Source: Nanobdellota archaeon
GTDB taxonomy: Archaea; Nanobdellota; Nanobdellia; SCGC-AAA011-G17; GW2011-AR17
Direction of reading: 5' to 3'
DNA length: 36,138 bases
NCBI GenBank assembly: GCA_018830945.1
Contig: JAHJRD010000026.1
Span: 1 to 36,138 of the forward strand
The position numbers were made by a program, and so were the translations under genes. Below the pieces are notes generated by a model. That model was not told the origin of the DNA. It made no database searches and saw only the letters and a program-made list of their open reading frames with translations. The number at the start of each line of letters is the position of its first letter. Position 1 is the first letter of the stretch. Shown here piece after piece: positions 12,115-15,028 of this stretch.

Positions 12115-12270
12115 ATTATTTACCTCCAAAATATATTTTCTACAGCAATAATCTACTGCATCCTTATAAGCCTTACGGAGAACGCCGCCCGCCAACGACG
12201 AATATGCCGCCTGTAACTCACCAGATGTCGCTCGCCTTCGGCTCGCAAGAACACTCTAAAAAGGAAAAGA

Positions 12271-12394
12271 TGGGCCCCACGGGATTTGAACCCGCGACCA
12301 CTGGTTGTCTTAAGCTTATGTACCAGTGCTAGCCATATAAGACCAGTGCTCTAATTGCCCGAATTTTTAATTCTCCAGGCTGAGCTAAGGGCCC
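12271..12394 (-). tRNA. tRNA-Ile(UAU) with two introns
   Basis: Read on the minus strand: acceptor GGGCCCU/GGGGCCC, D-stem GCUC/GAGC, T-arm GCGGG-UUCAAAU-CCCGU, discriminator A, and no encoded CCA. Intron 1 (12374-12355, 20 nt) splits the D-loop: central helix GCCU/GGGC with 3-nt bulges GGA and AAU, a bulge-helix-bulge. Intron 2 (12335-12307, 29 nt) lies at the canonical 37/38 position: central helix CUUA/UAAG with bulges UAU and ACA. Cutting each bulge after its second base yields a standard 75-nt tRNA with D-loop AGCCUGGUUA and anticodon loop CUUAUAA, so the anticodon is UAU (Ile, reading AUA). Most archaea instead read AUA with an agmatidine-modified CAU tRNA. Confidence 0.9.
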
Positions 12395-12420: not shown

Positions 12421-12430
12421 TATTTAAATG
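12421..12430 (-). promoter_or_regulatory. tRNA-Ile promoter
   Basis: CATTTAAATA on the minus strand places transcription start near 12399, about five nt before the mature tRNA 5' end at 12394. A T-rich run (TCTTTTCCTTTTT, about 12270-12258) after the tRNA is a likely terminator. Confidence 0.6.
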
Positions 12431-12541
12431 TTTCGAGCATAGCGAAGAGACATTATGAACCTCAGTGAATAAATGTTTCGAGCGAAATGCTATTTTATAT
12501 CACACATAAATTTATATATTCAGGCTAACTCTAATACAAAC

Positions 12542-12997
12542 ATGATTTGCAAGAGGTGTAATTATAACCCTGATAAGGGGGATTTGTTCTGCAGGAAATG
12601 CGGTGAGGAGCTGCCAACAGATGAGACTTTCCAGTGCGAGTGCGGCGCAGAAGTATGCAATGATGACAGGTACTGCCACAAGTGCGGCGCAATGTTCTCA
12701 TCAGGAACATGCAGCAGCTGCAATGCTGATTTGGCTCCAAATGCCAAATACTGCAGTGAATGCGGGACAAAGGCTGATGAGTCGGAAACAAGCGAAGAGC
12801 CTGCAACCTATGAAACGCCTGCTTTTATGAGCGAGCCTTCTTACAGCGAGCCAGAAACATCTTCTAATGAATCTTCTGAAGTGCCAAAGATAGAAGTGTA
12901 TGATGAGTACGGCAATGTAAGGCCAATTGATGAAAAAGAAGAAGAGCCTAAAAAGCCAAAGTACAGGATGTCTGGCGACGGCTATTACGAGCCTTAG
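12542..12997 (+). CDS. Zinc-ribbon protein with acidic tail
   Basis: 151-aa protein. The N-terminal 80 residues hold successive CxxC knuckles (CKRC, CRKCG, CHKCG, CSSC, CSECG), i.e. about three zinc ribbons; the remaining 70 are acidic, Ser/Pro/Glu-rich and probably disordered. Double zinc-ribbon proteins of this kind are common in archaea; binding partners are unknown. The start is taken at ATG 12542 (MICKRC) because TTTATATA at 12511-12518 predicts transcription from about 12540, a leaderless mRNA; an in-frame ATG at 12473 lies upstream of that promoter. The stop (12995-12997) overlaps the stop of the convergent mtaB. Confidence 0.75.
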   Translation: MICKRCNYNPDKGDLFCRKCGEELPTDETFQCECGAEVCNDDRYCHKCGAMFSSGTCSSCNADLAPNAKYCSECGTKADESETSEEPATYETPAFMSEPSYSEPETSSNESSEVPKIEVYDEYGNVRPIDEKEEEPKKPKYRMSGDGYYEP

Positions 12998-14241
12998 GCA
13001 ACAAGGTAATTATGATTAGCTTTCTTAATCTTAACAAGAACTCTCTGCCCTAATTCAAACTTTCCCTTAACCGCAACAGGCACGTAAGAACCCGTTCTCC
13101 CCAAATAAGAATTATCCTTTCCTTTTTCATCAATCAATACAAGCACCTCTCTTCCAACTGCCTTTTTCTTTTCTTCCAAAGAAAGCTTTTGAAACACTTC
13201 CAGCATTGCATCGCACCTTTCCCTTAAAACCTCGCTCCGCAACTGCTTCATCAGCCCTGCTTTTGTCTCAGGCATTGCCCAGTACCTGTTTAAATTCAGC
13301 ACAGAAGGCTTTACCTGCTTAATAATTGCTATTGACTGCCTGAAATCCTTCCCTGTTTCATAAGGAAACCCAACAATAATGTCTGTTGAGATTGTAATGT
13401 CAGGCAATTCTTTTCGTATGCCCTCAACAATTGAAACAAACTCATTAGCAGTATACTTCCTGTTCATGTCCTTAAGAACATTATTACTTCCGGCTTGTAT
13501 TGGAATATGCAAAAATCTGAACATCTTCTCATTTTTAAAACAAGAAACAAGCTCTTTCAAATACTTCTTAACAAACTGCGGATTAGCCATTCCAAGCCTT
13601 ACTTTGAAATTGCCATCAATACCACAAACTGCTTTTAACAATGAAGGCAAATCACTTCCAATATCCATGCCATAGCATCCAGTGTCCTGCGCAGTAAGCC
13701 ATATCTCTTTACAACCTTCCTTAACACATTCTTCAACTTCAGAAACAATATCATCAACAGCATAAGACAATAAATCACCTTTAATCGCCTTTACAGAGCA
13801 ATAAGAGCATGCGCCTAAACATCCAGTGCTTATAGGCACAATCCCAATTGCCTTATTCTTCCTTATCCTGGGCATGCGCGGCTTTTTAACTGCTTTCTTC
13901 TCAATAACCTCAATCCTTTCACCATTCAGCAGCTTTTCAACAGCAGAACAAACCAATGCAATGTTGTGCGTGCTTACAATTGATGCAGACGGAAGCTCTT
14001 TTCTTATCTTTTCAATCATGTAAGAAGGAATGCAGCCTGCAAGAATCACTCGTTCTTTTGCTTTTTTTGCAGCATTCATTCCCTTGTTAAAGCTAGGGCC
14101 TTTCACATTGCACACGCTAATTATTGCAATATCCTCATTAGAATCAACAATCTCATGCCCTGCTTCTTTCAACAAGCCTGCCATTATCTCTGACTCAGCC
14201 AGGTTATTGCTGCATCCGAATGCAATCAACTTAATTCTCAT
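12994..14241 (-). CDS. mtaB: tRNA t6A37 methylthiotransferase
   Basis: Radical-SAM enzyme of the MtaB/CDKAL1 group that inserts a methylthio group at C2 of t6A37 in tRNAs reading ANN codons. The 415-aa protein has the three N-terminal auxiliary-cluster cysteines (about C10, C44, C70), the radical-SAM CxxxCxxC (GCLGACSYCS; C141, C145, C148), HIPIQAGSNNVLKDMNRKY, and a C-terminal TRAM domain (GRTGSYVPV to the end). ATG 14241 is preferred over the TTG/GTG starts at 14253 and 14250 because GGTGA lies in front of it. It begins 1 nt after the stop of the ThiI-like gene, so both are one operon for tRNA modification. The adjacent tRNA-Ile(UAU) would be a natural t6A substrate (inference). Confidence 0.88.
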   Translation of the reverse strand: MRIKLIAFGCSNNLAESEIMAGLLKEAGHEIVDSNEDIAIISVCNVKGPSFNKGMNAAKKAKERVILAGCIPSYMIEKIRKELPSASIVSTHNIALVCSAVEKLLNGERIEVIEKKAVKKPRMPRIRKNKAIGIVPISTGCLGACSYCSVKAIKGDLLSYAVDDIVSEVEECVKEGCKEIWLTAQDTGCYGMDIGSDLPSLLKAVCGIDGNFKVRLGMANPQFVKKYLKELVSCFKNEKMFRFLHIPIQAGSNNVLKDMNRKYTANEFVSIVEGIRKELPDITISTDIIVGFPYETGKDFRQSIAIIKQVKPSVLNLNRYWAMPETKAGLMKQLRSEVLRERCDAMLEVFQKLSLEEKKKAVGREVLVLIDEKGKDNSYLGRTGSYVPVAVKGKFELGQRVLVKIKKANHNYLVA

Positions 14242-14242
14242 C

Positions 14243-15028
14243 TTATTCACCAATCAAAGGCCGCAGCACTGGTATTGAATATTCTCTTTTCTTCAGTGTT
14301 TCAAGGGTGTCAGAAACAACAACCGCCTCTGCATCTTTTGGCATTTTATCAAGAACCTGCATCCTGAAGCCATAAGCATATTTTTCAATCTCCTTTAAAT
14401 CAACATCTGCCTTTTTCACAAAAACAACCTCGCATCCCCTTTTCATCATAAGCAAGGCAGCCCTTACTGCATTCTTGTCTTCAACCAAAACAGCAACTTT
14501 CCCGCTGACTCCTATGGGAAGCCCGCCTGGGCCTTTTAGTGTCTTATTAAAAACATATGCTTTTCCATTAAACAATTCAATGCCTATTTCCACATCAGGA
14601 TTCTTCAGGTCAACCTTTGCATTTGTCTTTTCCGCTATAAAAGCCCCAATCTCTGTGTTCATTTCAATGGATGTTCCAAGCAGCTTTTCAAGCCTGTGCG
14701 CGGCAACCTTAAAGCTGCCTTCTGAGTAATGCTTTAACGCCTCCTGCTTAATCTTTTCAATGTCAGCTTCCATTTCAACAGCAGGGCTTATTGAAACAAT
14801 GCCAAACACATATGCAAGGCATTCGCAATTATCATTGCTGTAAACAATAATCCTTCCTCTTAGTCTTTTTATCTCGCCAAAAGCAATATTGTTCATCTTA
14901 AGGCAGGTTTTTATGTTTTTCACAAGCTGCTTTTCAAAATCATTCCTGTTCGCGCCTTTCAGCGCTATTTCCCCGTATCTTACAATTATGGTATTATGCA
15001 TTGTCGTTTCACTATGCTCCCAGAGCAT
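14243..15028 (-). CDS. ThiI-like THUMP protein with degenerate PP-loop
   Basis: 261-aa relative of the tRNA 4-thiouridine synthetase ThiI. The N-terminal ferredoxin-like start (IIVRYGEIALKGANRNDFEK) and THUMP domain (about 60-165) are intact, as is the linker GGLPIGVSGKV. Where ThiI has the ATP-pyrophosphatase motif SGGxDS, this protein has VEDKNA, aligned without a gap between GKVAVL and LLMMKRG. The domain is also shortened, ending in VLRPLIGE, which corresponds to the LRPL segment of ThiI; the catalytic-Cys part is gone. It should bind tRNA but cannot adenylate. The start at 15028 fits the TATA at 15051-15060 (leaderless); ATG 15001 (MHNTIIVRYG) fits the family N-terminus better and is the alternative. 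Confidence 0.75.
   Translation of the reverse strand: MLWEHSETTMHNTIIVRYGEIALKGANRNDFEKQLVKNIKTCLKMNNIAFGEIKRLRGRIIVYSNDNCECLAYVFGIVSISPAVEMEADIEKIKQEALKHYSEGSFKVAAHRLEKLLGTSIEMNTEIGAFIAEKTNAKVDLKNPDVEIGIELFNGKAYVFNKTLKGPGGLPIGVSGKVAVLVEDKNAVRAALLMMKRGCEVVFVKKADVDLKEIEKYAYGFRMQVLDKMPKDAEAVVVSDTLETLKKREYSIPVLRPLIGE

Follow-up and report, generated by a model that had tools for sequence, protein, structure and literature searches.

A two-intron tRNA-Ile(UAU) gene as the most likely AUA decoder of a nanoarchaeal genome

The codons AUA and AUG differ in the third base only, and in most bacteria and archaea the distinction between isoleucine and methionine depends on a dedicated enzyme. In Archaea the usual decoder of AUA is tRNA-Ile2 with the anticodon CAU, which carries agmatidine made by TiaS. 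A tRNA gene that encodes the anticodon UAU directly, and that is disrupted by two introns, raises the question of how AUA is read in its host and why the introns are kept. We address this question for one such gene in a stretch of 36,138 nucleotides, hereafter the window, from a Woesearchaeales-like nanoarchaeal metagenome-assembled genome (MAG; 1.5 Mb, 109 contigs, 95% complete). The proteasome alpha protein encoded in the window is 84–87% identical to those of Nanoarchaeota/Nanoarchaeia MAGs and 61–67% identical to those of Woesearchaeota. In 30 open reading frames of the window AUA accounts for 319 of 732 isoleucine codons (44%) and for 3.4% of all codons, and therefore some AUA decoder is required.

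Structure of the gene and its introns

The gene spans 124 nt on the minus strand. A cmscan search with Rfam model RF00005 matched exactly positions 12271-12394 (44.9 bits, E 1.4e-6), covering the full model (1-71) with two insertions, and our own covariance model R1 scored the same span at 102.7 bits. ARAGORN run without intron settings missed the unspliced gene and identified the spliced 75-mer as tRNA-Ile(tat); across precursor and spliced form, Rfam and ARAGORN give a cloverleaf whose anticodon loop, once the introns are removed, carries UAU. The initial annotation had described two bulge-helix-bulge (BHB) introns in a 75-nt tRNA with anticodon UAU and had proposed a covariance-model search as a check. 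That search, the reading of the BHB motifs and ARAGORN on the spliced form confirm, at the level of sequence, a tRNA-Ile(UAU) gene with two introns. Its parts and flanking elements are as follows.

12271..12394, minus strand: tRNA-Ile(UAU) gene with two introns and a 75-nt mature product (RF00005, ARAGORN and R1)
12375..12394, minus strand: exon 1, with the acceptor 5' strand, D-stem 5' strand and D-loop to G19 (cmscan alignment, junctions from the BHB)
12355..12374, minus strand: D-loop intron of 20 nt between residues 19 and 20 (BHB GCCU/GGGC, bulges GG^A and AA^U)
12336..12354, minus strand: exon 2, with the end of the D-loop, D-stem 3' strand, anticodon stem 5' strand and loop to A37; identical in genome G003
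12337..12339, minus strand: anticodon UAU, that is U34, A35 and U36 (cmscan alignment and ARAGORN)
12307..12335, minus strand: canonical intron of 29 nt between residues 37 and 38 (BHB CUUA/UAAG)
12322..12326, minus strand: element CUGGU at +10 to +14 of the intron, which duplicates 27-31 of the anticodon-stem 5' strand and can pair with 39-43
12271..12306, minus strand: exon 3, with A38, anticodon stem 3' strand, variable loop, T-arm, acceptor 3' strand and A73
12421..12435, minus strand: archaeal promoter-like element, BRE CGAAACA followed by TATA TTTAAATA, 27-41 nt upstream of the mature 5' end
12258..12268, minus strand: T-rich run TTTTCCTTTTT just downstream of the gene, a possible terminator

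Read directly, both junctions show 3-nt bulges on either side of a 4-bp helix. In the canonical intron the central helix is formed by C32-U33-U34-A35 (CUUA) with UAAG near the intron 3' end, the bulges are UA^U and AC^A, the inner helix is GGCU/AGCU and the outer helix is the anticodon stem; when the anticodon stem was forced in the fold, the central and inner helices were present, and homologues of the D-loop intron fold similarly. The D-loop intron has its central helix between GCCU of the D-loop and GGGC, and the D-stem, separated from it by a few unpaired bases, serves as the outer helix; the geometry is a regular 3-4-3 that departs mainly in the outer helix. Between this genome and G003 the three exons differ at 1, 0 and 6 bases, and the introns diverge much more. 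The D-loop intron of G003, AGGAGAAAUCCGGGCAU, keeps GGGC and has an inner helix altered on both sides (GAAU/AUUC to GGA/UCC). The same D-loop intron site recurs in the UAU genes of G050, G030 and G034 and in a tRNA-Ala of G009. The latter, a tRNA-Ala(UGC) (L044, G009:C27:375-491), also has the same GCCU/GGGC helix, and the shared site and helix hint at intron transposition between tRNAs. We also considered the intron copy of CUGGU as the true exon, forming a second anticodon stem, and rejected it because the resulting loop ACAUAAG lacks U33 and the D-stem pairs at only three of four positions.

The mature body is closely similar to the same organism's tRNA-Ile(GAU) and includes A73, and exon 3 encodes no CCA. 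Among the homologous UAU genes inspected, most are preceded by an element comparable to the BRE/TATA-like sequence CGAAACATTTAAATA. The gene recurs with its two introns in three congeneric genomes (98, 97 and 79% identity), flanked in each by the AAA ATPase and zinc-ribbon genes that flank it here, and on this comparison the gene is neither a chance match nor an artefact of a single assembly. Close by, at 12994-15028 of the window, lie genes for a radical-SAM/TRAM protein (UPF0004, methylthiotransferase type) and for a THUMP/ThiI-ferredoxin-like protein of only 261 aa, which is likewise of tRNA-modification type.

As for the splicing enzyme, a search with PF01974 detected one gene in this genome (95% complete) and no separate beta subunit. 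It encodes a catalytic alpha subunit of 225 aa with its N-terminal domain present, and the best solved relative is the Nanoarchaeum equitans subunit 3iey_A (E 3.5e-36). The N. equitans enzyme is an alpha2beta2 splicing endonuclease (PMC4033280), a type that has been linked to diverse introns (PMC4090602). The broad-specificity enzyme that the initial annotation called for at the D-loop intron can thus only be inferred, because no beta subunit was identified. EndA would presumably cleave both introns in vivo.

Probable reading of AUA without detectable TiaS

TiaS, searched for as PF08489, was detected neither in this genome nor in any of 79 relatives or 371 sampled genomes of the phylum, 243 of which have at least 90% completeness and at most 5% contamination; the same search was positive in all four control archaea. 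The genome yields 41 tRNA-like hits, all read individually save four weak ones, and among them are two tRNAs with the anticodon CAU. One (L026) is initiator-like, with A1-U72 and a GGG/CCC anticodon stem, and the other (L002, G000:C5:22820-22891) must by elimination be the elongator tRNA-Met. The latter, the only non-initiator CAU tRNA, has G37 (loop CUCAUGA) in place of the usual A37, and CUCAUG is also found in intron-bearing CAU tRNAs of G061 (L153) and G075 (L162). A third CAU tRNA, as expected of a tRNA-Ile2 besides initiator and elongator Met, is missing from the 41 hits of this 95% complete genome, a result to be read with the caveats that an incomplete MAG by itself cannot exclude a missed CAU tRNA or tiaS and that multi-intron tRNAs can escape the tRNA model. 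The genome further contains an intron-containing tRNA-Ile(GAU) at C106:7427-7522 and a second tRNA-like gene with the anticodon GAU (L027 1501-1574, G000:C106:6519-6592), which has A1-U72 and C33 instead of U33 (loop CCGAUGU) and may be a pseudogene or a specialised tRNA. No candidate decoder of AUA other than the UAU tRNA was found in the genome. The earlier suggestion that TiaS may be dispensable here is thus supported, and the accompanying check for tiaS and for an additional CAU isoleucine tRNA recovered neither.

UAU genes are also widespread. Counting only loci that were read as tRNAs, and locating them through DNA similarity, the covariance model R1 and fetched stretches, we found them in at least 47 of the 71 genomes scored in the order, in 16 of 20 numbered families; in the other 24 no UAU gene was located among the matches listed, which is not evidence of absence. 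Twelve more were read in other families of the class, and every UAU gene read in either set has an intron at 37/38. A pattern search of the phylum for intron-bearing UAU genes, the source of those twelve loci, returned 48 genomes, a count that bounds the true number neither from below nor from above because the pattern was mis-specified (RARG where TARG was needed). In pattern searches with GGTTCRA and then RGTTCRA, most of whose matches are not tRNAs, intronless UAU genes turned up in a single genus only, in the genomes G237, G340 and G382. Additional introns lie in the D-loop (this genus, G050, G030 and G034), in the anticodon stem (G022, G027, G037, G046 and G054) or in the T-arm (G006, G028, G044 and G082).

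The view that native UAU isoleucine tRNAs are rare in archaea, from which the initial annotation started, consequently fails in this phylum; published cases are those of Nanoarchaeum equitans and Korarchaeum (PMC6000648, PMC8450103) and of ARMAN-2 (PMC12397907). Since TiaS is undetected in all of the roughly 370 related genomes, a UAU tRNA without TiaS is, judging by gene content, the normal solution of the group, known before from Nanoarchaeum, and not an oddity. We found neither the phylum-wide lack of TiaS nor the spread of UAU genes stated in the open-licence literature searched.

We are thus highly confident, from the sequence comparisons, that the gene is functional and most likely the sole AUA decoder here, acting by ordinary decoding with a spliced tRNA. 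The gene would be transcribed from its own TATA promoter, and the splicing endonuclease would excise the D-loop and 37/38 introns at the two BHB sites. Ligation of the exons would give the 75-nt tRNA, IleRS would charge it, and U34-A35-U36 would read AUA by ordinary pairing, in which case neither an agmatidine-modified tRNA-Ile(CAU) nor TiaS is needed. Misreading of the methionine codon AUG might be avoided through modification of U34/U36 or through strict pairing of the unmodified bases. It is very improbable that the gene is instead a decayed pseudogene and that AUA is read by a CAU tRNA with an unrecognised modifying enzyme: an incomplete MAG and the unusual G37 of the second CAU tRNA would fit such a case, but the exon stems are all intact, the promoter is conserved, the gene is kept across families with exon 2 identical in G003, the presence of similar G37 tRNAs in G061 and G075 makes that CAU tRNA an established gene, and it is needed as the only elongator tRNA-Met known here.

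An intron copy of the anticodon stem and the retention of the 37/38 intron

A 9-nt direct repeat, AGCACTGGT, which includes CUGGU, occurs once in exon 2 and once in the canonical intron, so that the 3' strand of the anticodon stem can pair with either copy. The predicted minimum-energy fold of the precursor is the strand-swapped one that uses the intron copy. For the anticodon arm alone, the fold with anticodon stem and BHB is predicted to be 1.6 kcal/mol less stable than the alternative, a difference too small for energy to decide the real fold.

A comparable element is found in 24 of 48 precursors, where it starts between +7 and +11, mostly at +10, and pairs over at least 4 contiguous bp from residue 43. 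Swapping introns among genomes gave 15.5±1.8, and none of 5000 trials reached 24; when each family and stem type was represented once, the element was present in 14 of 27 sequences, against 8.0±1.4 after swaps. With the offset fixed and no search, only a start at +10 stands out as a peak (139 of 205 cells paired, 68%; 30–49% at other offsets), and the excess over swaps at +10 is modest (z 2.4 for all pairs, 3.0 for Watson-Crick pairs), the Watson-Crick excess being reached by 5 of 2000 swaps and by 17 of 2000 in the reduced set. Only 3 of 20 canonical introns of non-UAU tRNAs have the element. The element also tracks the stem, with both-sided changes at 43 (C-G/A-U/U-A), 42 (U-A/C-G) and 41 (G-C/A-U) at a nearly fixed offset, and neither the other half of the order nor the remainder of the class has it. 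Support for an alternative pairing that is conserved within part of the order is moderate, because the position and score were chosen after inspection of the data and the sequences are related.

Why the 37/38 intron is kept may be explained in more than one way. The explanation we tend to favour is that it persists with no special function: the conserved anticodon-loop sequence CUUAUA would fix the BHB, precise intron loss would be rare, and the stem copy would be left over from a local duplication or follow from the GC richness of the stem. Other tRNAs here often carry introns too, and their presence in 9 of 10 parsed tRNA-Ile(GAU) indicates that canonical introns are widely retained; moreover, the shared G-C core of the stems explains much of the pairing (15.5 of the 24 are matched by the swap null), and one genus has lost the intron. 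What fits this explanation less well are the both-sided changes at the three stem positions and the lack of such an element at neighbouring offsets and in most non-UAU introns.

It is unlikely that retention of the intron reflects a requirement in cis, on the precursor, for a modification of U34 and/or U36 that restricts the tRNA to AUA. The 37/38 intron is present in all UAU genes read bar those of one genus while introns elsewhere come and go, and the stem mimic anchored at residue 43, its excess over swapped and non-UAU introns, and the single peak at +10 with its Watson-Crick excess would all agree with a role in cis. There is precedent in yeast, where Psi34 and Psi36 are intron-dependent (PMC4090602, PMC11408192), and intron dependence has also been studied in a red alga with D-, anticodon- and T-arm introns in its tRNA-Ile(UAU) (PMC9602550). 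Against this stand the intronless genes in three genomes, the lack of the mimic in half of the order and in the remaining members of the class, and the post hoc choice of position and score. The TruA/Pus1 family PF01416, furthermore, was detected in none of the 71 genomes of the order, this one included, by a search that was positive in 12 of 14 controls and, having missed those of S. acidocaldarius and C. glutamicum, is not exhaustive. On the result of this search modification of the Pus1 kind was rejected; the undetected family weakens the direct parallel to Pus1, leaving RNA-guided or other routes as candidates. Inspection by eye revealed no recognisable box C/D or H/ACA consensus, and a box C/D guide inside the canonical intron was likewise rejected, as no CUGA or C box was recognised and the intron is short.

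Rather doubtful is the fuller proposal in which the UAU tRNA is the phylum-wide AUA solution in Nanoarchaeota and in which, in one order, the canonical intron has a second role as a cis-acting RNA element, competing for the 3' strand of the anticodon stem such that an alternative precursor fold might present U34 and U36 to a non-Pus1 modification machinery. Both accounts of intron retention, without function or in cis, are compatible with decoding of AUA by the spliced UAU tRNA.

Comparison with known systems

A phylum apparently without TiaS, in which the intron of the UAU tRNA is nearly always kept, is a natural setting in which to ask if decoding accuracy depends on tRNA introns, in parallel with eukaryotes. 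It also carries a warning, since gene finders that do not support multiple introns miss an essential tRNA in these genomes.

The tRNA-Ile2(CAU)/TiaS system does the same job of reading AUA, but differs in its CAU anticodon and its need for TiaS, which is undetected here. The type of gene described here is not new, since it has precedents in N. equitans, K. cryptofilum and ARMAN-2. Among 167 archaeal genomes UAU tRNA-Ile was reported only in N. equitans and K. cryptofilum, the gene of the latter having one intron (PMC6000648), and in both the UAU tRNA replaces the CAU tRNA-Ile2 (PMC8450103), as it appears to do here. N. equitans belongs to Nanoarchaeota, the group of the nearest named relatives of the window. 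The present case differs from these two in its second, D-loop intron and in the occurrence of UAU genes across many families. ARMAN-2 (Micrarchaeum acidiphilum) likewise has an intron-containing pre-tRNA-Ile(UAU), which is cleaved in vitro by its own endonuclease (PMC12397907), but that enzyme is of the epsilon-2 type and the organism belongs to another DPANN lineage. Finally, yeast and Cyanidioschyzon merolae share a UAU tRNA with an anticodon-arm intron, and the D- and T-arm introns of the C. merolae gene (PMC9602550) are also seen here and in relatives; these systems are, however, eukaryotic, with Pus1 acting on the precursor (PMC11408192), whereas a Pus1/TruA homologue is undetected here.
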